DNA from: Bacteroidaceae bacterium
Lineage (GTDB): Bacteria; Bacteroidota; Bacteroidia; Bacteroidales; Bacteroidaceae
DNA: 54,788 nt
Assembly (NCBI GenBank): GCA_017936265.1
Contig: JAGBFX010000023.1
Coordinates: 1-54,788, forward strand
Reading direction: 5' to 3'
Below, in pieces: positions 4,592-53,930 of the stretch. The notes beneath the pieces were generated by a model. It was not told where the DNA came from, made no database searches, and saw nothing but the letters and a program-made list of their open reading frames with translations. Numbering within the stretch: position 1 is the stretch's first letter; each line of letters opens with the position of its first letter. A program made the position numbers and the translations under genes.

Positions 4592-5599
4592 ATGAAAGTT
4601 TTAGTTACTGGAGCAAGCGGGTTTATCGGCAGTTTCATTGTCGAGCAGGGGCTTGAGAAGGGCTATTCAGTATGGGCCGGTATGCGAGGTGGCAGCAGCC
4701 GCAGGTTTCTTGCTGATGAACGCATAAACTTTGTAGAGCTTGATTTCTCTTCAAAGGAGAGGCTTACAGCACAACTGCTGGCATTCAAGGCTGCCCATGG
4801 CGCGTGGGATTATATCGTGCATGCTGCGGGTGTGACCAAGTGTCTCGACAAGAAGGAGTTCTTCAGGGTCAACTATGAGGGTACAAAGAACTTTGTTGAT
4901 GCTCTTTCCGCAACAGGTATGAAGCCCAAGAAGTTCATCTATCTCAGTTCGCTCAGCATCTTCGGACCCCTGCACGAGGAGCAACCTTACACTCCGATAA
5001 CGGAGAGTGATACTCCTGCCCCGAATACGGCTTATGGCGAGAGCAAGATTCTTGCCGAGCGGTATATAATGGAACATGCTGCGTTCCCTTATGTGATATT
5101 GCGTCCGACTGGCGTGTATGGTCCGCGCGAGCGCGATTATTTCCAGATGGCAGTGAGCATAAAGAATCATGTCGACTTTGCCGTGGGGTATAAGCCTCAG
5201 GTAATAACATTCATCTATGTCAAGGACCTTGTGAAGGCTGTCTATCTTGCCATGGAGAGTGGGGTGGAGAACCGCTGTTACTTTGTCAGTGAACCTCGCG
5301 GGTATGACAGCCGCGCCTTCAGTGACCTCATCCAGCGTGAGATGGGCATCAGGCATGTGCTTCACATCAAGGCTCCCGTTTGGTTGCTCAAGGTAATATC
5401 GGCATGCGCCGAGTGGCTCTCGCATCTGAGCGGGAAACCGAGCACTCTGAATGGCGACAAATATAAGATTATGAAACAACGCAATTGGCTCTGTGACACA
5501 TCGCCCATTGAGAAGGAACTGGGCTTCAGCATCGATTATCCGTTGGATAGGGGTGTCAAGGAGATGATTGAATGGTATAAACGGGAAAAATGGCTATAG
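4592..5599 (+). CDS. NAD(P)-dependent epimerase/dehydratase (extended SDR)
   Basis: A 335-residue extended short-chain dehydrogenase. The Rossmann motif TGASGFIG is at the N-terminus, and the active-site Tyr/Lys pair is in TAYGESK, with an upstream Ser in YLSSLSIFG. The start at 4592 gives the canonical MKVLVTGASG opening. The stop overlaps the ATG of the PAP2 gene by 10 bp, so the two are made together. Family members act on sugar nucleotides, dihydroflavonols, 3-beta-hydroxysteroids or 3-ketosphinganine. The PAP2/IPC-synthase-like partner makes a lipid substrate plausible; this is inference. I recall a report of a Bacteroides 3-ketosphinganine reductase of this SDR type, but cannot align it here. 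Confidence 0.88.
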   Translation: MKVLVTGASGFIGSFIVEQGLEKGYSVWAGMRGGSSRRFLADERINFVELDFSSKERLTAQLLAFKAAHGAWDYIVHAAGVTKCLDKKEFFRVNYEGTKNFVDALSATGMKPKKFIYLSSLSIFGPLHEEQPYTPITESDTPAPNTAYGESKILAERYIMEHAAFPYVILRPTGVYGPRERDYFQMAVSIKNHVDFAVGYKPQVITFIYVKDLVKAVYLAMESGVENRCYFVSEPRGYDSRAFSDLIQREMGIRHVLHIKAPVWLLKVISACAEWLSHLSGKPSTLNGDKYKIMKQRNWLCDTSPIEKELGFSIDYPLDRGVKEMIEWYKREKWL

Positions 5600-6546
5600 A
5601 CTTTTTAAAACGCGAGGAGGTGCAGGTAAAGTTCCTCGCCGTAGAGAAACTGAACCTTCTCTACAATCTGTTCACGACGCTGCTTATTATTGTGTTCTTC
5701 AATAGGTTGAATGACCCTCAGGAAATGCTCATGGGGCGTTTCTTCATTGCTGCGGCTACTTTTGTGGTTATATATATATACACCAAATATCCCTCAAAGG
5801 CCACGCGCCTTGTGAGGATTGTGACGCAGATGTCTCTGCTGAGCTACTGGTACCCCGATACCTTTGAGTTCAACAGGATTTTCCCCAATCTGGACCATCT
5901 GTTCGCCTCAATGGAGTTCAGCCTCTTCGGCTGCCAGCCAGCGATACTTTTCGACCAGGTGTTCAGCAGCATATGGTGGCGTGAGGCGTTCAATATGGGA
6001 TACTGGCTCTATTATCCGATGATTGCAACGGTGTCGTTCTTCTATTTCTTCTGTCGCCCGAAGGATGTGGAGCGCTGCACGTTCGTTATCATGGCATCGT
6101 TCTTCCTCTATTATATAATATATATATTCGTGCCTGTTGCCGGGCCTCAGTTCTATTTTCCTGTCATTGGTGAGGATGTGGCGGCCGCCGGCATCTATCC
6201 CGAGCTTGGAAACTATTTCAACCTGAATCCCGATATAACTATAGCGCAAGAGGGTAAAGGTGCTCTCTTTACGGAACTTGTAGGAGCTGCGCAGAGCAGC
6301 GGTGAGCGTCCTACAGCCGCTTTCCCGAGCTCACATATCGGTGTCTCTACAATCCTGGTCATGCTTGCCTTCAGGGCAAAGAGGTCGCTTGCCGTAATAA
6401 TGTTCCCAGTCTTTGTGCTTCTTTGCTGTGCGACGGTCTACATCAAGGCGCATTATCTTGTGGATGCCATAGCGGGCCTTCTGTCGGGAATCCTGATATA
6501 TTACCTTACAACATGGCTGTATAAGAGGTTTTCGAGTGAAGAATGA
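5590..6546 (+). CDS. PAP2-superfamily membrane phosphatase/phosphotransferase, IPC-synthase-like
   Basis: A 318-residue polytopic membrane protein with about six hydrophobic segments. The PAP2 signature is present in order: GERPTAAFPSSHIG (phosphate-binding Ser-His) and, about 45 residues later, KAHYLVDAIAG with the catalytic His and Asp. The long N-terminal membrane region before the motifs resembles the Aur1/IPC synthase subgroup more than short BacA/PgpB-type phosphatases. Such enzymes move a phospho-headgroup between lipids or dephosphorylate lipid phosphates at the membrane face. It begins inside the SDR gene, which argues for one pathway. The exact substrate is not readable from the sequence. 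Confidence 0.82.
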   Translation: MAIDFLKREEVQVKFLAVEKLNLLYNLFTTLLIIVFFNRLNDPQEMLMGRFFIAAATFVVIYIYTKYPSKATRLVRIVTQMSLLSYWYPDTFEFNRIFPNLDHLFASMEFSLFGCQPAILFDQVFSSIWWREAFNMGYWLYYPMIATVSFFYFFCRPKDVERCTFVIMASFFLYYIIYIFVPVAGPQFYFPVIGEDVAAAGIYPELGNYFNLNPDITIAQEGKGALFTELVGAAQSSGERPTAAFPSSHIGVSTILVMLAFRAKRSLAVIMFPVFVLLCCATVYIKAHYLVDAIAGLLSGILIYYLTTWLYKRFSSEE

Positions 6547-6553
6547 ATGATAT

Positions 6554-6660: not shown

Positions 6661-6749
6661 ACCGTAGCAAATGAGAAGGCTGCCATGTAAACCATACAGG
6701 AGTTTACGTGTTTAATAAAATATGGTAGAACTTAAAACGACTAAGAATT

Positions 6750-7190
6750 ATGAAAAAGATTATGTTTTTATTGACTTTGGTATTCTCCCTCGGTGTAGTC
6801 AGTGCTTTTGGTTTCAATGACAAGGTTATCAGCAAGAACCAGTTGCCAGCACAGGCGCAGAGCTTCTTGAACGAGAATTTCGCAGATGTGAAGATTTCAT
6901 ACGCAAAGCAGGAGACTGACTTCATTGAGCGCTCTTATGAGGTTGTGCTTGCCGACGGAACGAAGCTCGAGTTCACGAAGAAAGGTAATTGGAAAGAGGT
7001 TGACTGCCGTTACAGCGAGGTACCTTCGGCAATAGTACCGGCTCCAATAAAAAATTTCATTAATGAGAACTATTCAGACAGCAGAGTTCTGAAAATCGAG
7101 CGTGACAGCAGAGGGTATGAGGTAAAGCTGTCGAACAAACTTGAACTGAAGTTCAACAACGATTTCAAGATTGTTGACATTGATGACTGA
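6750..7190 (+). CDS. Exported PepSY-like (DUF2874) protein
   Basis: A 146-residue secreted protein. The signal peptide is about residues 1-20 (MKKIMFLLTLVFSLGVVSA). Two PepSY-like/BLIP-fold repeats follow: the first contains LPAQAQSFLNENF and the second VPAPIKNFINENY. Each has a helix with the F(L/I)NENY pattern followed by strands containing E-V/L-x-F/L residues. Proteins of this Bacteroidetes family are periplasmic or secreted and are thought to bind or inhibit partners; no enzyme activity is expected. The next gene has the same fold and lies 60 bp downstream, suggesting an operon. Confidence 0.8.
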   Translation: MKKIMFLLTLVFSLGVVSAFGFNDKVISKNQLPAQAQSFLNENFADVKISYAKQETDFIERSYEVVLADGTKLEFTKKGNWKEVDCRYSEVPSAIVPAPIKNFINENYSDSRVLKIERDSRGYEVKLSNKLELKFNNDFKIVDIDD

Positions 7191-7250
7191 AAATTGAACA
7201 ACTGAGAAAAACTATACAAACAACTTCCAACTTTGAAAAAAACAACTATT

Positions 7251-8072
7251 ATGAAAAAACTATTTTTGATGATTATGCTTTCGCTGCCATTTATTGTAGC
7301 ATGCAGCGATGATGACAATGAGATGAAGGTGGACCTGAACAATGCTGTACTACAGTTTATTGACAGCAGATACCAGGGTGCCAAGCTTCGCAGTTCTGAG
7401 TTTGAGAGCAACGGGCTTCTTGAGGTGGAGATTCTGCACGAAGGAAAGGTTAAGGACCTCTATTTTGACTCTCAGAGCAAGTGGGTCTACACATCGTGGG
7501 ATGTGAGACAGAACGAACTGCCTCAGGTTGTCAAGTCTGCCGTTGCCGAGGCTTATCCCGACTATCGCATAGATGATATTGATTTCATCGAGCGTGAGAC
7601 AATAAACTATTACGCGGTTGAAATGGACAAGGGCAAACTCTCCATTATGGTATATGTTTCGCCCGAGGGTGAGATTCTTGAGAGTACAGCAGGCGAGCCT
7701 GGTGCAAAACCTGTGATAAGCGATGCGGTGCGCCACTTTATCGATGAGCACTATCCCAATGCAAGGATAACAGACTACGGCTACGATGCAAACGGCCTGC
7801 TTGAGGTGGATATCATTGACGGCGTCATAGAGAAGGATGTATATTTTGACAGCAACGACAACTGGGTGCAGACCGACTGGGACGTTCCGGTGGACAATAT
7901 GCCCGATGCAGTGCATAAGGCTCTTGCCGACAACTATCCGCAGTATTTTATCGACAGTGCCGAGTATGTTGAGCGTCCTAACGGAGTGGTCTACTACGAG
8001 GTAGAGCTGGAGCGTGTAGGCGGTGCCGAGATAATAGTCAATGTGACTCCCGACGGCGAGGTGCTGAAGTGA
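7251..8072 (+). CDS. Surface lipoprotein with duplicated PepSY-like domains
   Basis: A 273-residue lipoprotein. The lipobox LPFIVAC is followed by SDDD, the kind of acidic stretch that acts as a lipoprotein surface-export signal in Bacteroidetes, so outward exposure is likely. The mature part is an internal duplication of about 120 residues. VLQFIDSRYQGAKL and VRHFIDEHYPNARI start the two halves, SNGLLEVEI and ANGLLEVDI follow, and VYTSWDV and VQTDWDV match later. Each half holds two PepSY-like units. The ATG at 7251 is preferred over an in-frame TTG at 7233 because it yields a compact signal peptide. Function is unknown beyond the fold. Confidence 0.8.
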   Translation: MKKLFLMIMLSLPFIVACSDDDNEMKVDLNNAVLQFIDSRYQGAKLRSSEFESNGLLEVEILHEGKVKDLYFDSQSKWVYTSWDVRQNELPQVVKSAVAEAYPDYRIDDIDFIERETINYYAVEMDKGKLSIMVYVSPEGEILESTAGEPGAKPVISDAVRHFIDEHYPNARITDYGYDANGLLEVDIIDGVIEKDVYFDSNDNWVQTDWDVPVDNMPDAVHKALADNYPQYFIDSAEYVERPNGVVYYEVELERVGGAEIIVNVTPDGEVLK

Positions 8073-8105
8073 TAGTGCGATGATAATGATAATTCCAAAG
8101 AAGAT

Positions 8106-8218
8106 GACTAAAAAGTAATCTTCTGCGTTATACGAACCCACAAAAACCGCAGTTTACTGAGCGTAAATGAGGATTTTTGTGGGTTCGCAAGCCTTGAATC
8201 CTATCTTTTTATCCACTT
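8106..8218. repeat. Dispersed hairpin element, copy A
   Basis: The left flank is GACTAAAAAG ... TTCTGCGTTAT at 8106-8132. A perfect 13-bp stem follows (GAACCCACAAAAA at 8134-8146 with its complement at 8174-8186), extendable by one C-G pair. The 27-bp core at 8147-8173 contains a small TTTAC/GTAAA hairpin. The right flank GCAAGCCTTGAATCC ... ATCTTTTTATCCA is at 8187-8218. A second copy is at 27662-27774. There the flanks are in the same orientation, the stem has another sequence, and the core is inverted. The copy begins 33 bp after the lipoprotein stop. Confidence 0.85.
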
Positions 8219-19154: not shown

Positions 19155-20678
19155 TTAGTGTTTGAAGTGACGGAATCCTGTTATTACCATAGCAACGCCG
19201 TTAGCATCGCAGTAGTCGACAGACTCCTTGTCTCTGATTGAACCGCCCGGGTGTACCACAGCGGTAACTCCAGCCTTGTGTGCAATCTCCACACAGTCGG
19301 GGAAGGGGAAGAATGCGTCGCTTGCCATTACGCTGCCCTCGAGAGAGAAACCGAAGTTGCCCGCTTTCTCAATGGCATGTCTCAGCGAGTCGACACGTGA
19401 TGTCTGGCCTACACCGCTTGCGATGAGCTGCTTGCCCTTCGCGAGCACGATTGCGTTGCTCTTGCTGTGCTTTACAATCTTGTTGGCAAAGAGCATATCC
19501 TCAATCTCGCTCTCCTTTGGTGCGACTTTTGACACTACCTGAAGGTCTGCAGCAACCTCGACCTTGCTGTCACGGTCCTGTACAAGCACTCCGTTCAGCA
19601 CGCTGCGGAATGTCTTCTCGGGCATGGCTGTCTGTTTCTGGATGAGGATGATGCGGTTCTTCTTCTGCTTGAGTACCTCAAGGGCGTCGGCGTCATAGCT
19701 TGGAGCGATGATTACCTCGAAGAAAATCTCGTTGACCTTCTCGGCTGTAGCCTTGTCTACATTGGCATTGGCAATGAGCACTCCGCCGAAGGCCGATACA
19801 GGGTCGCCTGCGAGGGCTGCATCCCAAGCCTCGGCAAGTGTAGGACGTGACGCCAGACCGCAAGCGTTGTTGTGCTTGAGGATAGCGAATGTGGTCTCGC
19901 CGGCGAAGTCATTGATGAGCTCAACGGCAGCGTTTATGTCAAGCAGGTTGTTGTACGAAATCTCCTTGCCATGAATCTGCTCGAGCATATCGTTGAAGTT
20001 GCCGTAGAAAGCGCCCTTCTGGTGTGGGTTCTCGCCGTAACGCAGTGACATCGGGGTGTCGTTTGTCTGGCGGAACGCGCTCTTGTCATCCTTGTCGAAC
20101 CAGTTGAAGATTGCCGAGTCGTAAGCCGAAGAGACAGCGAATGCCTCACGTGCGAAGAAACGGCGCTCCTCAAGTGTTGTCTCGGCGCCTTTGCTCTTGA
20201 GAATCTCGTGGAGCGGAGCATACTGTGCCTTGCTTGCAACAATGACAACATCGTTGAAGTTCTTTGCAGCACCGCGGATGAGCGAGATGCCGCCTATGTC
20301 AATTTTCTCGATGATGTCGGCATCGCATGCACCCGAAGCTACAGTCTGCTCGAATGGGTAGAGGTCGACAATCACGAGGTCAATCTCGGGAATCTCATAC
20401 TCTGCCATCTGCTGCTGGTCCTTCTCAAGCTCTCTGCGTCCGAGGATACCGCCGAAAATCTTGGGGTGCAGAGTCTTCACGCGGCCGCCCAGAATTGATG
20501 GGTAACCTGTGAGGCTCTCCACTGCAGTGCAGGGAATGCCAAGTGATTCTATGAACTGTTGTGTACCGCCGGTAGAAATGAGCTGAACGCCTTCTGCATG
20601 CAGAAGCTTGATTATCTCATCAAGGCCGTCTTTGTGGAAAACGGAAACCAATGCCGATTTAATTCTTTTTGTAGACAT
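19155..20678 (-). CDS. purH: Bifunctional AICAR transformylase/IMP cyclohydrolase
   Basis: A 507-residue enzyme for the last two steps of purine synthesis. The N-terminal IMP cyclohydrolase (MGS-like) domain contains ALVSVFHKDGLDEI and STGGTQQFIESLG. The C-terminal AICAR formyltransferase domain carries the catalytic Lys-His in FAILKHNNACG and the motif SDAFFPFPDCVE. It heads the operon that continues into mreB. The leader of more than 100 bp contains dispersed repeat sequence, and no purine riboswitch could be recognised. Confidence 0.97.
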   Translation of the reverse strand: MSTKRIKSALVSVFHKDGLDEIIKLLHAEGVQLISTGGTQQFIESLGIPCTAVESLTGYPSILGGRVKTLHPKIFGGILGRRELEKDQQQMAEYEIPEIDLVIVDLYPFEQTVASGACDADIIEKIDIGGISLIRGAAKNFNDVVIVASKAQYAPLHEILKSKGAETTLEERRFFAREAFAVSSAYDSAIFNWFDKDDKSAFRQTNDTPMSLRYGENPHQKGAFYGNFNDMLEQIHGKEISYNNLLDINAAVELINDFAGETTFAILKHNNACGLASRPTLAEAWDAALAGDPVSAFGGVLIANANVDKATAEKVNEIFFEVIIAPSYDADALEVLKQKKNRIILIQKQTAMPEKTFRSVLNGVLVQDRDSKVEVAADLQVVSKVAPKESEIEDMLFANKIVKHSKSNAIVLAKGKQLIASGVGQTSRVDSLRHAIEKAGNFGFSLEGSVMASDAFFPFPDCVEIAHKAGVTAVVHPGGSIRDKESVDYCDANGVAMVITGFRHFKH

Positions 20679-20852
20679 GATTATTTTGTATTTTGTTGTT
20701 TATTTTCTGAATTAATCCCGATGTCATTCTGAACGTAGTGAAGAATCTTAAAGAATCAAAATTCCAACCCACTTCTTTTAATGATTTCCGGAGTATAATG
20801 TTTGTTATCAATCAATTAAATATAAAGAAGGAGTATGCTCCCCAATTTTTAC

Positions 20853-20861
20853 GCGAAGTTA
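20853..20861 (-). promoter_or_regulatory. Possible -7 element for the purH-mre operon
   Basis: The minus strand reads TAACTTCGC, a common variant of TAnnTTTGC, 175 bp before the purH ATG. It is the only candidate I see in the leader, but the -33 side is unconvincing. A short 83-codon frame on the plus strand across this site is not considered a gene. Confidence 0.3.
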
Positions 20862-20962
20862 ACTTTTTTTGCTCGATTTTGCACTACAAAAAGGGTGTTA
20901 TTTATCAACAGTTAAATATAAAATATTTAAAAAAACAGCAGTTTGTTGCAGCTTGGTTCTGT

Positions 20963-21300
20963 GTCATTCAATATTTGCAACGTCATTGACTCGTTTTGCT
21001 TTTCGCAACCCAAACGACAAAAGTTAAATTCCTCCTCTGCCTGAGGGGAGGTGCCAGTTTACTGGCGGAGGGGTGGGAGTGCTACGTTTGACCTGTTGCT
21101 GCAAAACTCGCCGATAACAAAAAAAGGTCATTGACTCGTTTTGCTTTTCGCAACCCAAACGTCATAACCTACGGCTATGCTACGTTTGACCTATTGCTGC
21201 AAAACTCGCCGATAACAAAACAAAAGAGCATTGGTTCGTTCATTGTTACACTAATGAACTCACCGATAACAAAACGTTGTTTTGTCATTTTGAGCGTAGC
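20963..21300. repeat. Long dispersed intergenic repeat, copy 1 (with internal duplication)
   Basis: It contains GTCATTGACTCGTTTTGC twice (20982 and 21127) and GCCGATAACAAAA-type ends several times. A GC-rich segment at 21031-21080 (CCTCCTCTGCCTGAGGGGAG, then CCAGTTTACTGG) looks like stacked hairpins. The same series, with only one of the two internal units, recurs at 53703-53930 in the same orientation. A TGTCATTCTGAACGTAGTGA-type repeat sits at 20723 and a relative (TGTCATTTTGAGCGTAGCGA) at 21282. The whole interval 20679-21429 holds only these repeats and promoter sequence. Confidence 0.85.
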
Positions 21301-21429
21301 GAAAAATCTCAAAAACAGTCTATGAAGTCATTGATTTTGTCGTTGCTTGCCCTTTAACACTACATGCTTGTTGTTCATCAAATACATAGAATAAAATGCC
21401 CGATATTTTCTATCTTCGTTAAAATAATT

Positions 21430-21438
21430 TAACTTTGC
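21430..21438 (+). promoter_or_regulatory. -7 promoter element for the TIR gene pair
   Basis: TAACTTTGC matches TAnnTTTGC exactly, 20 bp before the ATG at 21459. Transcription would start near 21445, so an in-frame TTG at 21435 cannot be the start codon. The -33 side holds only TTTC-like runs. Confidence 0.6.
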
Positions 21439-21458
21439 GTCATAAGGATAAATTTGCT

Positions 21459-22868
21459 ATGAAATACGATGTATTTATAAGCTATAGTCGCAAGGATTCC
21501 GAAATAGTCAAGCGGTTTGCCGATGAGCTGCATAAGGCGGGATATAGATGTTGGTTGGATGTTGATGGTGTGGAGACAGGTGATGAATTCAAAAGCAAGA
21601 TCGTTACTGCTATAAAAGAATCGGAACTGTTCCTCTTTTTCTCTTCACAGGCATCCAATAGGTCACCTTGGACAGTGAAGGAGGTAAATGTTGCTGTCAG
21701 CCTTAAAAAAACGATTATTCCGATAAAACTTGATGCGACTGTGTACAATGATTCCCTGTTGTTCGACCTTGCAGGGCTTGATTTTATACGTTGCGAAGGT
21801 AGCAATGATATGGATGAAGCGATTGCTAAACTGATACGTTCATTGGGTAAAAAAATAGTAGCGGATAAAAAAGAAGAGAACGATATATATAAAAAAGAGG
21901 AAGGCGCTGCTAAACCGTCAAATAATTTTTGGAATTACTTTGCAAGTTCGACATTCAAAGTAAGTTTCAGGTATTTTGTAGTATTGTTGATTGTTGTATC
22001 TGTTGGAGTTGGTGCTTGGTCAAGTTTTATGGTTGAGAGTGCACCTTCTTACAGTATTAAGAGCAGTGAACAGATTGATGAGGTATATACTAATTCCAAC
22101 AAGCCTGCTCCAGATGCAATTCGTGGGCATCATCCCTCAAGGTTTACCAAGGAGCGAGATTTTGATAGTGAGGTTTCTAAAGCTCCTAAAGCGGAGACTG
22201 ATTATATTGAGAAGATTGTTGCAACGCCTCGCAGTTCAAAAGGTTTGCTCTGCGTTGCTGCTGTAAATAAAAACAGTCGCGAGATAGCATATTTTACTGC
22301 CGATGAGTGGGAAAGTCTCCCGCAGGATATAAAAGCAGATTATGCACAGCTCGGTGTCTCAATAAGCGAGGATGGTCATGAATTTATTATTGCACCAACG
22401 GATTGTAAAGACCCTGACGATGGCGATTATATATTGCCTTTTGGAGGTTGCGAAGTGAATTTTGAGGGTGTTGAAAACTATTCTCCAGGAGCGGGTCTTT
22501 GGGTAACCGGTAAGAACGATACAAAGGCGATAATAGAGCAAACGAGTGGTAAGACTTATTCGTATCAAATTGTAGGGGCTCCTGCGCCTGAGGCTGCTTG
22601 GAGGTATAAAGCTAACGTCTATGACCCTCTTCAATGGTATCTACCTAGTTATATGGAACTGGGCATGATATATGAAAACCAGGATGCCATAAATGATTTT
22701 ATATTCAAATATATTGCGGGTGGCACAACAATAAATGGCGATGCGTATTGGAGCAGTACTGAGTGTGATGGCGGTCGTTCTCTTGATATTGTCATGCTTA
22801 ATGGCAGTTCTTTTGCAGAACATCGTGCTGCGTTTAAGTATGTTCGGGCAGTAGCTGTTGTGGAATGA
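21459..22868 (+). CDS. Membrane-anchored TIR protein with DUF1566 ectodomain (first of pair)
   Basis: A 469-residue protein with three parts. Residues 1-125 form a TIR domain: box 1 KYDVFISYSRKD, CWLDVDGVETGDEF, then SSQASNRSPWTVKEV with Glu75 at the position of the TIR NADase catalytic Glu. A single TM lies at about 168-190 (FVVLLIVVSVGVGAWSSF). The C-terminal half is a DUF1566-type, lectin-fold domain with GKNDTKAIIEQ, WYLPSYMELGMIY, AYWSSTE and a closing VRAVAV. With no signal peptide, TIR should be cytoplasmic and DUF1566 periplasmic or surface-facing. The ATG at 21459 gives the same opening as the next gene. Sequence is AT-rich compared with neighbours. Ligand and output are unknown; NAD+ cleavage is inferred. 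Confidence 0.85.
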   Translation: MKYDVFISYSRKDSEIVKRFADELHKAGYRCWLDVDGVETGDEFKSKIVTAIKESELFLFFSSQASNRSPWTVKEVNVAVSLKKTIIPIKLDATVYNDSLLFDLAGLDFIRCEGSNDMDEAIAKLIRSLGKKIVADKKEENDIYKKEEGAAKPSNNFWNYFASSTFKVSFRYFVVLLIVVSVGVGAWSSFMVESAPSYSIKSSEQIDEVYTNSNKPAPDAIRGHHPSRFTKERDFDSEVSKAPKAETDYIEKIVATPRSSKGLLCVAAVNKNSREIAYFTADEWESLPQDIKADYAQLGVSISEDGHEFIIAPTDCKDPDDGDYILPFGGCEVNFEGVENYSPGAGLWVTGKNDTKAIIEQTSGKTYSYQIVGAPAPEAAWRYKANVYDPLQWYLPSYMELGMIYENQDAINDFIFKYIAGGTTINGDAYWSSTECDGGRSLDIVMLNGSSFAEHRAAFKYVRAVAVVE

Positions 22869-22901
22869 CCGTTTGAATGATATAAATTTTAAGGCGATAC
22901 G

Positions 22902-24278
22902 ATGAAATACGATGTATTTATAAGCTACTCTACATTTGATGAGGCAATTGCCCGCGATGTGTGCCGTGTACTGGAGGAGAACGGAATCTGTTGTTGGATT
23001 GCTTTGCGAGATGCCAAACCAGGCAATCCATATGCTTGTGAGATAATGAGTGGTATCGAGGAATCAAAGATGCTTCTTCTTATTTTTTCTTCAAATTCCA
23101 ATGTCTCAGAGCCTGTTGCAAGTGAAATTGAAGAAGCTTTCAACAAGAAAAAACCAATAATTGTATTTCTCATAGAAAATAAGCCGATGGCTCCGGAACT
23201 GAAGTTCTTTCTTAAACGTAAGCATTGGCTTGTGGCTTATCCTGATTATAAACAGAAACTTGGGAATCTTGTACATGCAACTCATGATGTCTTGGGTATA
23301 TCTAAACCTAAAGTAGTTGTCGAAAGCGATGAGCATCTCTTGGAAGAGCAGGGGAGTGATAATGTTGATATTAAAAGGGATGATATCGGTAAATCTTTAT
23401 TGAATCTTTTGAAAAATCTTGTAGCCAAAAGTTCATCAATATTGTCAAAGTTAGGTTGCGTTGTTTCATTGTTATTTTTTATACTTCTTACAATTCGTTT
23501 TTGTAGTGATGGTAAGGAGGACGCTGAGTCGGTGCAAACTGCTGAGCCTTGGGAGATGTCAATAGAGCAGAAAGGGGAAGGAAATATGTCTCAAGAGGAA
23601 ATTGATGAGGTTTTGAATCTTCAGAGAATCCTCTCAACGCCTCGCAGTTCAAAAGGTTTGCTCTGCGTTGCTGCTGTAAATAAAAATAGTCATGAAATAG
23701 CATATTTCACAGCAGATGAGTGGGATCGTTTGTATATGAAGTCAGAATATGCAAAGGTCGGTGTCTCAATAAGCGAGGACGGTCATGAATTTATTATTGC
23801 ACCCACGGATTGCAAAGACCCTGAAGATGGCGATTATAAACTGCAGTTCGGGTGCGTTCGTATGGAGTTTGACAGAGTAATACAATATAAAGAAATATCA
23901 GAGTTTATTACAACCGGATATAATGACACCAAGAATATAGTTGAACAGGCCAAGGGTAAGATAGATTCAAAGGGAATCAGGGGCGCACCAGCTGCTGAGG
24001 CTGCGTGGAATTATAAAGCAAATGAGTATGACAACCTGCAATGGTATCTGCCTTCTGTTTCGGAATTGAAGATGATTTATAGAAACAAGGATGCGATAAA
24101 TGAATTTATATTCAGGTACATTTCACAAGGAGAGGGGGTACTGGATAAACTTTATTGGAGTAGTACTGTGTATGATTACGATTCCTCTTGGTTCGTGCTT
24201 ATGCACAATGGTTTTAGCAAGTACGGCCGCATTCGTAATGATAGTAATAGCGTGCGTGCTGTTGCTATCGCAAAATAA
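22902..24278 (+). CDS. Membrane-anchored TIR protein with DUF1566 ectodomain (second of pair)
   Basis: A 458-residue paralogue 33 bp downstream of the first. The TIR domain is a different subtype: KYDVFISYSTFDE, CCWIALRDAKPGNPY, then SNSNVSEPVASEIEEAF, again with Glu75 aligned to the catalytic position. The TM is at about 183-202 (CVVSLLFFILLTIRF). The ectodomain matches the partner strongly: RSSKGLLCVAAVNKNS, SISEDGHEFIIAPTDC, GYNDTKNIVEQ, WYLPSVSELKMIY, LYWSSTVYD and VRAVAI. The TIR halves look only distantly similar while two ectodomain segments are near-identical in DNA. A hairpin closes the unit at 24312. It is probably co-expressed with the first gene and may heteromerise with it (inference). 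Confidence 0.85.
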   Translation: MKYDVFISYSTFDEAIARDVCRVLEENGICCWIALRDAKPGNPYACEIMSGIEESKMLLLIFSSNSNVSEPVASEIEEAFNKKKPIIVFLIENKPMAPELKFFLKRKHWLVAYPDYKQKLGNLVHATHDVLGISKPKVVVESDEHLLEEQGSDNVDIKRDDIGKSLLNLLKNLVAKSSSILSKLGCVVSLLFFILLTIRFCSDGKEDAESVQTAEPWEMSIEQKGEGNMSQEEIDEVLNLQRILSTPRSSKGLLCVAAVNKNSHEIAYFTADEWDRLYMKSEYAKVGVSISEDGHEFIIAPTDCKDPEDGDYKLQFGCVRMEFDRVIQYKEISEFITTGYNDTKNIVEQAKGKIDSKGIRGAPAAEAAWNYKANEYDNLQWYLPSVSELKMIYRNKDAINEFIFRYISQGEGVLDKLYWSSTVYDYDSSWFVLMHNGFSKYGRIRNDSNSVRAVAIAK

Positions 24279-24311
24279 TCTTTTCAACAATTTATCGATT
24301 TATCTATTGAT

Positions 24312-24343
24312 ACAAGAGGATGACTCAAAAGTCATCCTCTTGT
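24312..24343. terminator. Terminator-like hairpin after the TIR pair
   Basis: A perfect 14-bp stem (ACAAGAGGATGACT and its complement) encloses the loop CAAA, 33 bp after the second TIR stop. No T-run follows, so it may work as an RNA 3' end or as a weak bidirectional terminator. Confidence 0.6.
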
Positions 24344-24499
24344 TAAACTGAGGTTCGATATAATAATTTATACTTATTTTAGTGTATTTGTTATCTCAAA
24401 CGAATGTGGATTATTGTATCAAGGAGTGTAACAAGAATTCATTTTATGTTACTCTATAAGCGTTAAAATAATCGTCGAAGGTAAAAATCCCTTATTTTG

Positions 24500-24592
24500 G
24501 ACATTCTTGAGATCCCTCGTCGCTATGCTCTGTCGGGATGACAAATCTACGATTTGGTTGAGTTTATATCGGATTCACATTAAATAGCTTCC
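24500..24592. repeat. Dispersed repeat between the TIR pair and nadB
   Basis: The units TTGAGATCCCTCGTCGC, TCGGGATGACAAAT and TATATCGGATTCACATTAA follow one another, echoing the arrangement at about 79-142 of the window. The stretch from 24344 to 24597 otherwise has no gene, and no promoter is apparent. Confidence 0.5.
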
Positions 24593-24597
24593 CGTTT

Positions 24598-26169
24598 TCA
24601 GCTTGTAACTCTCGGATGGTCCACGTTATAGTGCAGGCCGCGGCTCTCCTTGCGCTCCATTGCCCAGCGCATGATAAGATAACCTACATTTATTACGTTG
24701 CGTAACTCGCATAGCTCGCGGCTCACGACGCTCTTTTTGAACAGCTCCTCGGTCTCCTCGTACAACAGGTCAAGGCGGTTCCAGGCGCGTTTCAGGCGCA
24801 GGTCGGTGCGCACTATTCCCACGTATGTACTCATAATCTGCTGCACCTCCTTGGCATCCTGTGAGATGAGCACCATCTCTTCGTTCATCTTGGTGCCCTC
24901 ATCGTTCCACTCGGGAACTTCTTCCTTGTAGCTGTACTCCGCAAAGTGCGCAAGCGAATGCTTGGCAGCCGCATCGGCATATACCACTGCCTCGATGAGC
25001 GAGTTGCTTGCCAGGCGGTTGCCGCCGTGCAGGCCTGTGCATGAACATTCGCCCACGGCATACAGCCTGTGTATGCTGGACGCTGCGTTGAGGTCGACCT
25101 TTATGCCGCCGCAAAGGTAGTGTGCTGCCGGTGCAACGGGTATATAGTCCTTGGTTATGTCAATGCCCAACGAGAGGCATTTTTCGTATATGTTGGGGAA
25201 GTGGCGCTTTGTCTCCTCGGGGTCCTTGTGTGTGACGTCGAGGTATACATGGTCATCGCCACGCTGTTTCATCTCGTTGTCAATGGCACGTGCCACAATG
25301 TCGCGCGGGGCAAGCGAGAGGCGCGGGTCGTACTTGTGCATGAACTCCTTGCCGTCTCTGGTGCGCAGTATGCCACCGTAGCCGCGCATGGCCTCGGTAA
25401 TGAGGAACGAGGGCCTGTCGCCGGGGTTGTAGAGTGCTGTAGGGTGGAACTGCACGAACTCCATGTCCTGTACTGTTCCTTTGGCACGGTAGACCATTGC
25501 TATGCCGTCGCCCGTAGCTACAAGGGGGTTGGTGGTTGTCTTGTATACTGCACCGCAACCGCCGGTTGCCATCAGTGTCACCTTGCTCAGGAATGTATGT
25601 ACCTCGTTGGTGGCAATGTCAAGTATGTATGCGCCGTAGCACTCGATGTCGGGGGTCTGGCGTGTCACCTCAATGCCCAAGTGGTGCTGCGTGAGTATCT
25701 CAATGGCAAAATGGTTGTCGAAAATGGTTATGTTGGGGTGCTTGCGCACTGCCTTTATGAGTGACTCCTGTATCTCGGCGCCTGTGTTGTCGGCGTGGTG
25801 CAGTATGCGGAATTCGGAGTGTCCGCCCTCGCGGTGCAGGTCAAAATCGCCCTTCTCGTTCTTGTCAAAATCTACACCCCAGTCGATGAGGGCCTGAATC
25901 TGTGAAGGTGCCTCGCGTACTACCTTTTCCACTGCTGCGCGGTCGCTTATCCAATCGCCCGCAATCATGGTGTCTTCAATGTGCTTGTCGAAGTTGTCTA
26001 CCAGCCTGTTTGTCACTGAGGCTACTCCTCCTTGGGCAAAGAATGTGTTTGCCTCTTCGAGGGTGGTCTTGCAGATAAGCGCTACGTTTCCTTTGTCGGC
26101 AACCTTGAGCGCGTAACTCATTCCTGCTATGCCGGAACCGATTACAAGAAAATCAAATTTCTTAACCAT
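24598..26169 (-). CDS. nadB: L-aspartate oxidase
   Basis: A 523-residue FAD enzyme that oxidises L-aspartate to iminoaspartate, the first step of de novo NAD synthesis. The dinucleotide-binding motif FLVIGSGIAGMSYAL is at the N-terminus. Family landmarks are FFAQGGVASV, REGGHSEFRILHHADNTG, MEFVQFHPTAL and HYLCGGIKVDLNA. The C-terminal succinate-dehydrogenase-like helical domain is present. I chose the ATG at 26169 (MVKKFDFLVIGSG) over a frame running open to 26457, because the extra N-terminus is unlike the family and overlaps the divergent dacB gene. The partner genes nadA and nadC are not adjacent here. Confidence 0.95.
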   Translation of the reverse strand: MVKKFDFLVIGSGIAGMSYALKVADKGNVALICKTTLEEANTFFAQGGVASVTNRLVDNFDKHIEDTMIAGDWISDRAAVEKVVREAPSQIQALIDWGVDFDKNEKGDFDLHREGGHSEFRILHHADNTGAEIQESLIKAVRKHPNITIFDNHFAIEILTQHHLGIEVTRQTPDIECYGAYILDIATNEVHTFLSKVTLMATGGCGAVYKTTTNPLVATGDGIAMVYRAKGTVQDMEFVQFHPTALYNPGDRPSFLITEAMRGYGGILRTRDGKEFMHKYDPRLSLAPRDIVARAIDNEMKQRGDDHVYLDVTHKDPEETKRHFPNIYEKCLSLGIDITKDYIPVAPAAHYLCGGIKVDLNAASSIHRLYAVGECSCTGLHGGNRLASNSLIEAVVYADAAAKHSLAHFAEYSYKEEVPEWNDEGTKMNEEMVLISQDAKEVQQIMSTYVGIVRTDLRLKRAWNRLDLLYEETEELFKKSVVSRELCELRNVINVGYLIMRWAMERKESRGLHYNVDHPRVTS

Positions 26170-26289
26170 ATTATGATATCTCTTTTGGAGCCGTGTAAAA
26201 TTACAAAAAAATATAATAATACGCTGCTGTGCGCCATTTTTTCGTAAAATATCTGTAGTTTTACGGAGTATAAGACATTTTTTTGAACG

Positions 26290-27654
26290 ATGAAACTGCA
26301 CCTGATTATATATCTGTTGCTCTTCTCTCTTGCAGCCCCGGCGCAAAGGGCAATGAAGAACTCCATTGATTATCTGCTCAAGGATGAACTTCTGAACACG
26401 ATTGATGCTTCTGTCATGGTCTATGACCTTGATGATGATACCCTGCTCTATGCTCATCGCCCCGACAAACTTGTGCGTCCGGCCTCGGTGCAGAAGATTG
26501 TCACGTCGGTTGTGGCGGTTGATAAGTTGGGCGACGGATATACCATTGATACCGAGCTTTTCATAAAAGATAATGGGGAGTGCCGGAACCTTTACGTCAA
26601 AGGGCGTATGGACCCGCTCTTCGGTGTTGATGATATGGTGAAGATGGCATCTTCGGTACCGGGAGGCAGTGCAGTTGACACTCTTTTTGCCGATTGTTCC
26701 TTTATGGATTCACTCTATTGGGGCAGCGGGTGGATATGGGATGACAATCCCTATGGCTTTCAGCCTTATCTGTCGCCGCTTATGGTGTGCGGTGGTGCTG
26801 TGGAGGTTGTCGTTTCGCCTGCGTCAAAGGGCGAGGCCCCACATTATACTGTAACGCCCGAGTCCTCATTCTATTCCGTTGTGAATGAAGCGCGTAGCGG
26901 CGACCCCTCCCTCGGTAAGCTGACAATCCTTCGTGACTGGCTTGAGGATAGTAACCTCATCCGAATCAGGGGTAACTGTACCAAGCGCTACAAGGAGAAG
27001 ATAAACATGTACAAGTCGGCCGATTTCTTCCTTACCTTGCTTGCCGAGAAACTCGATTCTGTCGGTGTAGAAGTGAAGGTTATCTCTCTCGGATGTACAC
27101 CCGATGATGCAGAGCTTATTCATCTTGTCCGCCGTCCTGTAGTAGATGTCGTTGATGAGGCTCTCATGGAGAGCGACAATCTTTGCGCCGAGGCACTTGT
27201 ATATCATCTTGCCGCGCTCGGGAATGAGCCGCCATTGTCAATGGATGAGGGGTGTGAGGTGCTCCGCGGGTTCCTGAACAGGGAGGCCGGGGGATGCAAC
27301 GGATTCTCCGTAGCCGACGGCTCGGGGCTGTCGGTCTATGATTATATATCTGCCAGGCATCTTATAAACACTCTCCGGTATGCATACAAGGATAGCACTC
27401 TTTTCGATGTCATCTACAGCCGTCTGCCTATGTCGGGTGTGTCGGGTACAATGAAGAACCGCACCAAGGAGGGTGTCGCATATAAGAAGGTACGCGCAAA
27501 GACTGGAACAGTGAAGGGTGTATGTACTCTTGCCGGTTATGCGCATGCGTCAAACGGACATCTATGTGCATTCGTAATCCTGAATAACGGATTGCAGAAG
27601 GCTTCGGTTGTAAGACGTTGGCAGGATAAGGTGCTGGAGGCAATATGTCGATAG
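26290..27654 (+). CDS. dacB: D-Ala-D-Ala carboxypeptidase/endopeptidase, PBP4 (S13) family
   Basis: A 454-residue periplasmic PBP. The signal peptide is about residues 1-18 (ending APA|Q). The SxxK motif is ASVQK with Ser66 and Lys69, the SxN motif is SDN in MESDNLCAE, and KTG is in RAKTGTVKGV. The large insert between SxxK and SxN (MDPLFGVDDM, CSFMDSLYWGSGWIWDDNP) is typical of class C PBP4. It trims or opens peptide cross-links in peptidoglycan. It is divergent from nadB and convergent with queG, with the second hairpin repeat element in between. Confidence 0.93.
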   Translation: MKLHLIIYLLLFSLAAPAQRAMKNSIDYLLKDELLNTIDASVMVYDLDDDTLLYAHRPDKLVRPASVQKIVTSVVAVDKLGDGYTIDTELFIKDNGECRNLYVKGRMDPLFGVDDMVKMASSVPGGSAVDTLFADCSFMDSLYWGSGWIWDDNPYGFQPYLSPLMVCGGAVEVVVSPASKGEAPHYTVTPESSFYSVVNEARSGDPSLGKLTILRDWLEDSNLIRIRGNCTKRYKEKINMYKSADFFLTLLAEKLDSVGVEVKVISLGCTPDDAELIHLVRRPVVDVVDEALMESDNLCAEALVYHLAALGNEPPLSMDEGCEVLRGFLNREAGGCNGFSVADGSGLSVYDYISARHLINTLRYAYKDSTLFDVIYSRLPMSGVSGTMKNRTKEGVAYKKVRAKTGTVKGVCTLAGYAHASNGHLCAFVILNNGLQKASVVRRWQDKVLEAICR

Positions 27655-53702: not shown

Positions 53703-53930
53703 GTCATTCTATATTTGCACTGTCATTGACTCGTTTTGCTTTTCGTAACCCAAACGGCATAAGTTAAATTCCTCCTCTGCCTGAGGGGAGGTGCCAGTTT
53801 ACTGGCGGAGGGGTGGGAGTGCTACGTTTGACCTATTGCTGCAAAACTTGCCGATAACAAAACAAAAGAGCATTGGTTCGTTCATTGTTACACTAATGAA
53901 CTCACCGATAACAAAACATTGTTTTGTCAT
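53703..53930. repeat. Long dispersed intergenic repeat, copy 2
   Basis: This is nearly identical to the repeat at 20963-21290 in the same orientation: TGTCATTC, ATATTTGCA, GTCATTGACTCGTTTTGC, CCTCCTCTGCCTGAGGGGAG, CCAGTTTACTGG, GCCGATAACAAAACAAAAGA and ATGAACTCACCGATAACAAA. It carries only one of the two internal units of copy 1. Together with the terminator and flanking AT-rich DNA it fills the gene-free interval 53549-53994. Confidence 0.85.

Follow-up and report, generated by a model that had tools for sequence, protein, structure and literature searches.

What do two adjacent bacterial genes sense when each joins a TIR domain to a membrane span and a lectin-like domain, and how could such a sensor vary? 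The question is raised by a gene pair, here called g1 and g2, on contig JAGBFX010000023.1 of a Bacteroidaceae bacterium (assembly GCA_017936265.1), whose 54,788 nucleotides we refer to as the window. At a probability of roughly one half, we favor the reading that these proteins are periplasm-facing sensors with a hypervariable lectin-like tip and a TIR domain of the NAD+-cleaving (NADase) type, probably serving in anti-phage defense. The evidence centers on the 3′ end of g2, which resembles the variable region (VR) of a diversity-generating retroelement (DGR) whose template lies in a prophage assembled with a sister species.

Architecture of g1 and g2

Both genes had been described in an earlier reading made from the DNA letters alone (the sequence-only reading) as neighbors that each encode a TIR domain, one transmembrane (TM) helix, and a carboxyl-terminal DUF1566-type domain. 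Open reading frames (ORFs), which lie 33 bases apart, Pfam searches, and hydropathy bear this out (Table 1), and the motifs WYLPS, YWSST, and VRAVA that were picked out then are present in both proteins. The TIR_2 profile is matched above its cut-off of 28 bits by g1 (1.3e-24, 87.4 bits) and g2 (5.1e-19, 69.4 bits). The glutamate pointed to at residue 75 is seen in both, and its column is Glu in all 12 aligned TIR domains of the genus. g1 and g2 thereby appear to carry the catalytic glutamate of TIR NADases, which lies in the helix C region; characterized bacterial TIR proteins bearing it are mostly NADases in conflict.

When compared with PDB sequences, the g1 domain matched the TIR NADases TIR-APAZ (8j7s and 8fex, of the SPARTA system; E 2e-7), AbTIR (8g83; 2e-5), and SARM1 (6o0q; 2e-4), and in each of three alignments with TIR-APAZ proteins its Glu is paired with a Glu. 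Unlike these NADases, g1 and g2 have no APAZ, pAgo, SAM, or ARM part, and carry a carboxyl-terminal tip behind a TM helix instead. The g2 domain gave weak matches to the TIR domains of Toll-like receptors (TLRs) and TIRAP (E 4e-4 and up). This resemblance to TLR/TIRAP domains rather than to NADase TIRs would suit an alternative that we consider unlikely, in which the pair senses glycans or the envelope and has no role in defense: the tip would bind host mucin, the cell's own capsule, or neighboring cells, and the TIR domain would be a signaling scaffold. In keeping with it, the carboxyl-terminal domain of the Legionella adhesin Lcl binds glycosaminoglycans, according to passages of PMC11162425, and most cellular DGR target clusters combine a TM helix or signal peptide with binding domains, according to parts of PMC8144416. 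However, E75 is retained in both TIR domains, and TIR genes are patchily present at the chromosomal site described below, which argues against it.

Each TIR domain is followed by a predicted TM helix, with a hydropathy over 19 residues of 2.31 and 2.43 in the two window proteins. The N-termini are not hydrophobic, in agreement with the earlier statement that a signal peptide is absent. The net charge of the 15 residues before and after the helix (+2/−2 in g1, +3/−2 in g2) favors an N-inside orientation by heuristic only; the same asymmetry was seen in 6 of the 7 TIR-TM proteins for which it was computed, the exception being G004:C91 of the sister species (+2/+3). By hydropathy and charge heuristics only, both proteins would thus fit a single-pass membrane receptor with its N-terminus in the cytoplasm. 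The sequence-only reading had placed the TIR domain inside and the ectodomain outside the cell; the charges agree with the first part, whereas the ectodomain is probably periplasmic rather than extracellular, since the helix would span the inner membrane of a Gram-negative cell. It is quite improbable that the predicted helix misleads and that the lectin-like domain senses phage proteins inside the cell, as both hydropathy and charge asymmetry speak against this in the two window proteins. Still, two proteins of the genus have no TM helix behind their TIR domain, namely a TIR-Lcl protein (G004:C91, 388 aa) and a TIR-Fib_succ_major-like protein (G005:C33, 326 aa), and several DGR targets with a C-type lectin (CLec) domain in Thiohalocapsa are predicted to be cytoplasmic in passages of PMC10907252.

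The two ectodomains are 60% identical. g2 matched Lcl_C (PF07603, which we take to be the family formerly named DUF1566) with 4.8e-8 and 33.7 bits as a protein (cut-off 34.9) and, above cut-off, with 36.9 bits in a genome search; the g1 match was sub-threshold (0.0021, 18.7 bits). The name DUF1566 is applied to pfam07603 in a passage of PMC11162425. Sequence-profile matches of the ectodomain include PDB 8q4e and 4eps, and its fold is probably C-type-lectin-like. The former is the Lcl_C/DUF1566 domain of Legionella Lcl, matched over the carboxyl-terminal 76 positions (E 1.5e-5); unlike g1 and g2, Lcl is a secreted, collagen-like trimeric adhesin without a TIR domain, and passages of PMC11162425 do not mention a DGR. 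At the start of the g1 ectodomain, two tracts are 86–87% identical to g2 (23617–23725 and 23734–23851), which may reflect either duplication of paralogues or conversion.

A template pattern in the g2 tip

Relatives of the ectodomain with 42–46% identity occur in phage-like surroundings at 6 loci (L041, identical to L101; L042, identical to L100; L099; L103; L104; and L105), by which the ectodomains of g1 and g2 can be placed in the DGR variable-protein family common to gut phages. At 5 of these loci, mismatches between template repeat (TR) and VR fall on template adenines (13/15, 12/14, 14/14, 16/16, and 18/20), while L105 ends inside its VR and gives no count. Profiles of Avd and reverse transcriptase (RT) were both matched in L104, where they were searched, and between L041 and L042 the RTs share 65% identity. 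DUF1566 (47 proteins), FGE-sulfatase (42), and Fib_succ_major (9) are listed among DGR variable-protein domains of human microbiomes in a portion of PMC4159848. Similarly, the Bacuni phages of Bacteroides uniformis have a DUF1566/Fib_succ_major target with a variable region at its 3′ end (the last 35 aa) and adjoining Avd and RT genes (PMC8143477, in part). Phages F1 and F2 of this group are 25% identical to the g2 ectodomain (E 3e-4 to 4e-4); in contrast to g2, their target is a phage adhesin, and no TIR domain or TM helix is mentioned in those parts of the paper. Two further DGRs in the genus, whose targets by eye resemble Fib_succ_major, have substitutions at template adenines exclusively: L225 (G036:C53:47000-57000; 6106–6292 / 7614–7800), with 27/27, and L226 (G019:C47; 1678–1861 / 300–483), with 24/24.

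The DGR at L042 belongs to a prophage in G004, the assembly of the sister species and a bin of metagenomic contigs (metagenome-assembled genome, MAG). When its template, TR42, was used as a query, only one region of the window's own genome (G000) matched strongly, g2 24194–24272 (80%, E 7e-14). Over 90 bases, g2 agrees with TR42 at 51/57 non-A positions, 26/29 third codon positions, and 15/33 adenines, while for the remaining g2 ectodomain the identity to the phage gene is 275/546 over all positions (50%) and 60/182 at third positions (33%). The excess over this background is significant for both non-A (Fisher 2e-9) and third positions (6e-9), and on the identity at third positions we reject chance as the origin of the tip. 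Two TIR receptors of G004 agree with TR42 in the same way (non-A, third, and A positions: 53/57, 26/29, 17/33 and 54/57, 29/29, 13/33). Moreover, g2 and its G004 counterpart differ at 18/40 template-A positions and 5/66 others (p 1e-5); by codon positions 1, 2, and 3, they differ at 9, 11, and 2 of 28 codons in the VR, and at 22, 6, and 21 of 190 outside it.

The similarity continues past the stop codon. A stretch of the 3′ UTR agrees at 27/30 bases with that of the phage target gene, a level reached in 0 of 2000 shuffles. When 126 ORF ends were scored, g2's own and spurious ORFs included, g2 came out on top with 24, followed by 15. Judged by its match to a template except at adenines, the 3′ end of g2 is a DGR-type variable region, which the sequence-only reading had overlooked; this holds for g2 only, and with a template from the sister species. 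The signal consists of the excess match outside adenines.

A number of observations weigh against the sensor reading with its variable tip. The match at adenines was not significantly below that at background codon positions 1–2 for g2 (p 0.09) or for one G004 receptor (G004C1, 0.24); it was for the other (G004C91, 0.008). The 90-base stretch of g2 was picked from the BLAST match. Sliding the sister comparison by +2 codons yields a nearly equal enrichment at adenines (18/35 versus 5/55) because Asn codons alternate, so that this comparison alone cannot separate the two registers. Moreover, among five templates TR42 alone fits g2; the remaining four matched at 18–20 of 36–39 positions in gap-free comparison, although these are one Asn codon shorter, which makes them a poor control for g2 and a fair one for g1. 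The g1 tip, as long as the shorter phage templates, fits none of the five (16–17 of 36–39 non-A and 5–7 of 20–22 third positions), which is no better than the g2 background given above; only one of the two genes therefore supports the claim of a variable tip, and any former rewriting of the g1 tip would no longer be visible with these five templates. The window's own genome (87% complete, 62 contigs) contained no RVT_1 match, no RT protein match, and no template repeat, so we do not call g2 the target of an active DGR. Beyond the tip, the flanking genes look like housekeeping genes by eye, the window proteins match TIR portions of other systems in PADLOC, and lectin motifs are absent from 43 of the 54 TIR ORFs examined in the genus, tails of WD40, WG, and Sel1 type being found as well.

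TR42 was rejected as the exact parent of the g2 and G004C1 tips, as each tip departs from it in the third base of 3 of 14 Asn codons. As a DNA query, the g2 tip found itself and chance-level matches, the best at E 0.06. In IMG/VR, an exact pattern of the template core gave two matches, the contigs of L103 and L104, while that of the template 3′ end gave none.

How the pattern arrived is, apart from DGR action in the past, a matter of two scenarios, neither of which we would put at even odds. In one, the tips are frozen: the 3′ end and 3′ UTR of a phage DGR target were captured by recombination, spread, and were selected, with no DGR acting on them. The missing RT and template in G000 would suit this scenario, as would the 3′ UTR homology, which shows phage-type gene ends moving as DNA, and the template pattern that is lost from, or never was in, the g1 tip. 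A further genome, G017 (93% complete), has no related RT, yet a comparison of its two PEGA-Lcl tips likewise shows differences at 21/40 template-A positions against 8/66 elsewhere; their fit to TR42 is slightly poorer (32/38 and 31/38 at non-A positions). Against it, the tips of g2 and the two G004 receptors fit the constant bases while at adenines they diverge from the template, the phage tip, and one another, so that capture would have to be repeated with differently mutated copies; the G004 bin, moreover, contains both receptors and the DGR prophage. The PEGA-Lcl_C-type proteins of G017 lie at L040/L097 (G017:C45, 127–2867) and have template-like tips and no TIR domain. The longer of them, the one scanned with Pfam, has a signal-like N-terminus, and the genes that come next look caspase-like and sigma-like by eye.

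In the other scenario, a retroelement on a prophage rewrites the tips of host TIR receptors in trans, so that phage adhesins and receptors would share both a lectin-like domain and a template family. We hold this only tentatively. It draws on G004, where the DGR prophage is found together with two TIR proteins whose tips match the constant positions of the template (53/57 and 54/57) in a MAG bin, which does not prove that prophage and receptors reside in one cell. An RT-like fragment of 87 aa at L227 (G015:C15:72000-82000, 6712–6972), 77% identical to the RT of the G004 prophage, adjoins a lysis module resembling that of this prophage; no longer RT match is listed on its contig.

Turnover at the purH-nadB site and relatives in the genus

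g1 and g2 lie between purH (19155–20678) and nadB (24598–26457), both on the minus strand and named by eye. Among the 61 genomes searched, own included, the nearest match to the g2 ectodomain beyond G000 was found at the same chromosomal place in G004, whose PurH is identical to that of G000 (507/507). There, a TIR-Sel1 protein (455 aa, no TM helix) is followed by a TIR-TM-coil-Lcl protein of 598 aa (coil by eye), in which a g1-type TIR-TM part (aa 1–180, 95–100% identity per 20-residue block) is followed by a g2-type ectodomain. Judging from these alignments, TIR and ectodomain modules have been exchanged between neighboring genes. One g1-type and one g2-type TIR domain stand at the site in both species, and either type also occurs singly elsewhere. 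At another place, the G004 assembly has a TIR-Lcl protein without TM helix. The tandem pair as a fixed unit was therefore rejected.

Nineteen further purH loci were compared: in 13, nadB was adjacent with no ORF above 84 aa in between, 4 had other neighbors, and 2 were at contig ends. A 3.7-kb contig in the G004 bin carries a third allele, TIR-TM-Sel1, flanked by nadB and the beginning of purH; as its nadB is just 88% identical, this contig may come from another species. In G035, a TIR-TM-FGE gene stands on the nadB side, and the purH contig stops before it.

In the genus, 68 TIR_2 matches were found in 44 genomes. By a motif rule, 11 of the 54 ORFs inspected have carboxyl-terminal motifs of the Lcl_C, Fib_succ_major, or FGE-sulfatase type; in 8, a TM helix is predicted between these and the TIR domain. 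Truncated proteins escape the rule, an example being G066:C19, which is FGE-like by eye. A Pfam scan covered 9 of these 11 (g1, g2, and 7 others): FGE-sulfatase was above cut-off in 2 and Lcl_C in 1, with g2 above it in the genome search only, while the other scanned proteins had sub-threshold Lcl_C or Fib_succ_major matches. The layout for which the sequence-only reading knew of no characterized system is thus not isolated. Nor are its homologues, as a rule, single genes without a membrane span, although some do lack the span.

In an order-wide search of 393 genomes, the best match beyond G000 had an E of 2e-14; matches of this strength and weaker mostly cover the carboxyl-terminal ~75 of 219 positions, and a few weak ones are longer (for example G322, 22–217, E 5.5e-7). 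A TIR-like motif was found at none of the 15 other loci with a resolved ORF (29 inspected). A plasmid search gave three records, which match the TIR part only.

Other TIR genes of the window's genome include a TIR-TM-FGE-sulfatase gene (L049, G000:C49:22000-36000, 6756–8207), two genes before that of a large protein, TPR-rich by eye, and a TIR-TM gene with WD40-like repeats by eye (L048, G000:C34:48000-64000, 5262–6548). In the genus, several TIR proteins end in WD40- and WG-like tails.

Upstream of g1, a TAnnTTTG motif, which we take to be the Bacteroidetes −7 box, is a candidate promoter element, with 5 occurrences within 20681–24700. The same region holds two exact copies of a 34-base intergenic repeat (20983–21016 and 21128–21161), a third copy of which lies at 53723–53756 with one mismatch; additional direct repeats lie within 20979–21275.

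Table 1. Features of the g1–g2 locus, in window coordinates.
Feature	Position	Strand	Basis
TAnnTTTG motif, candidate −7 box of g1	21430..21437	+	Motif match only
g1, TIR-TM-Lcl_C-like ectodomain, 469 aa (ATG to stop)	21459..22868	+	ORF, profile search, hydropathy
g1 TIR_2 domain, E75	21471..21836	+	Pfam; best PDB sequence matches TIR-APAZ, then AbTIR, SARM1
g1 predicted TM helix, aa ~172–192	21972..22034	+	Kyte-Doolittle
Start of g1 ectodomain, two tracts 86–87% identical to g2	22204..22444	+	
g1 ectodomain, DGR variable-protein family; last part aligns with variable region at protein level, matches 0/5 templates tested	22209..22865	+	
g2, TIR-TM-Lcl_C ectodomain, 458 aa (ATG to stop)	22902..24278	+	ORF, profile search, hydropathy
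g2 TIR_2 domain, E75 kept	22914..23261	+	Pfam; weak PDB matches to TLR/TIRAP TIRs
g2 predicted TM helix, aa ~178–198	23433..23495	+	Kyte-Doolittle
g2 ectodomain, 42–45% identical to phage DGR variable proteins of L041, L042	23610..24275	+	
DGR-type variable region of g2	24183..24272	+	TR42 comparison: non-A 51/57, adenines 15/33
3′ UTR stretch, 27/30 identical to 3′ UTR of L042 phage DGR target gene	24279..24308	+	
Perfect 14-bp hairpin, 4-base loop; terminator or DGR-type hairpin; identical in sister species	24312..24343	+	

Known systems and a possible mechanism

The closest precedents are DGR variable proteins of Thiohalocapsa PB-PSB1 and cyanobacteria. In passages of PMC10907252, fusions of TIR and CLec domains are DGR targets in Thiohalocapsa and are proposed as antigen sensors; in passages of PMC7517822, TIR is a less common domain on DGR targets of cyanobacteria. 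Like g1 and g2, these proteins carry a carboxyl-terminal CLec domain behind an N-terminal effector or signaling domain, TIR included, and variable proteins remote from their DGR exist in cyanobacteria (PMC10907252, PMC7517822, both in part). They differ in having the DGR in the same genome and in their partners, which in those passages are STAND, MoxR/VMAP, CHAT, or kinases; the window proteins, in contrast, are TIR-TM-CLec proteins of the Lcl_C type from a Bacteroidaceae-type genome, with no DGR found in it and a template in a prophage of the sister species. FGS lectins also occur in conflict systems (PMC7159879, PMC8195603, in part), while in a large survey of DGRs (PMC8144416) no word of the main text starts with TIR. 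No TIR-TM-Lcl_C receptor was found in titles, abstract openings, and passages of the literature, a body of text with the subscription literature mostly outside it. TIR and CLec DGR targets being known already, the TIR-TM-Lcl_C receptor would be the new element here.

Scans of g1 and g2 with NCBIfam and PADLOC gave partial TIR matches and nothing more. Thoeris ThsB is similar in that the window proteins weakly match the ThsB_TIR profile. ThsB is not known to have a TM-lectin tail, and no ThsA-like gene was seen among the neighbors (purH and nadB), judged by eye only. Animal TLRs share with g1 and g2 a TIR domain, one TM helix, and a sensor ectodomain, in reverse order along the chain and with an unrelated ectodomain. 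We thus reject the term Toll-like receptor homologue as a statement of kinship and retain it as an analogy.

The proposal of the sequence-only reading that g1 and g2 form a TIR-based sensor still seems the best available, and its anatomy was right; what has changed is that the layout is not isolated and the pair not fixed. On the sensor reading that we favor, each protein would be a single-pass receptor of the inner membrane, its TIR domain cytoplasmic and its C-type-lectin-like DGR variable domain periplasmic. The g2 tip would have been written from a DGR template like that of a prophage in the genus, with constant positions copied and adenines randomized, while g1 would be an older partner in which rewriting has ceased. 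Tip rewriting, together with the re-assortment of TIR domains and ectodomains between neighboring genes, would change what the receptors bind in the course of the lineage. Binding of a ligand, probably a component of a phage or of a surface that reaches the periplasm, would cluster the TIR domains; these would then cleave NAD+ or make a nucleotide signal, by which the cell is stopped or a partner triggered, in an anti-phage or non-self alarm.

If this is true, bacteria would possess TIR receptors whose sensor undergoes targeted diversification, comparable in simple form to Toll receptors with a variable tip, and a one- or two-protein system would allow a test of what DGR-diversified sensors detect. 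If rewriting in trans is true as well, a bacterium would gain a re-randomized repertoire of innate receptors from the very machinery by which a phage varies its adhesins. DGR targets would, in that case, have to be sought beyond the element that bears the retroelement.

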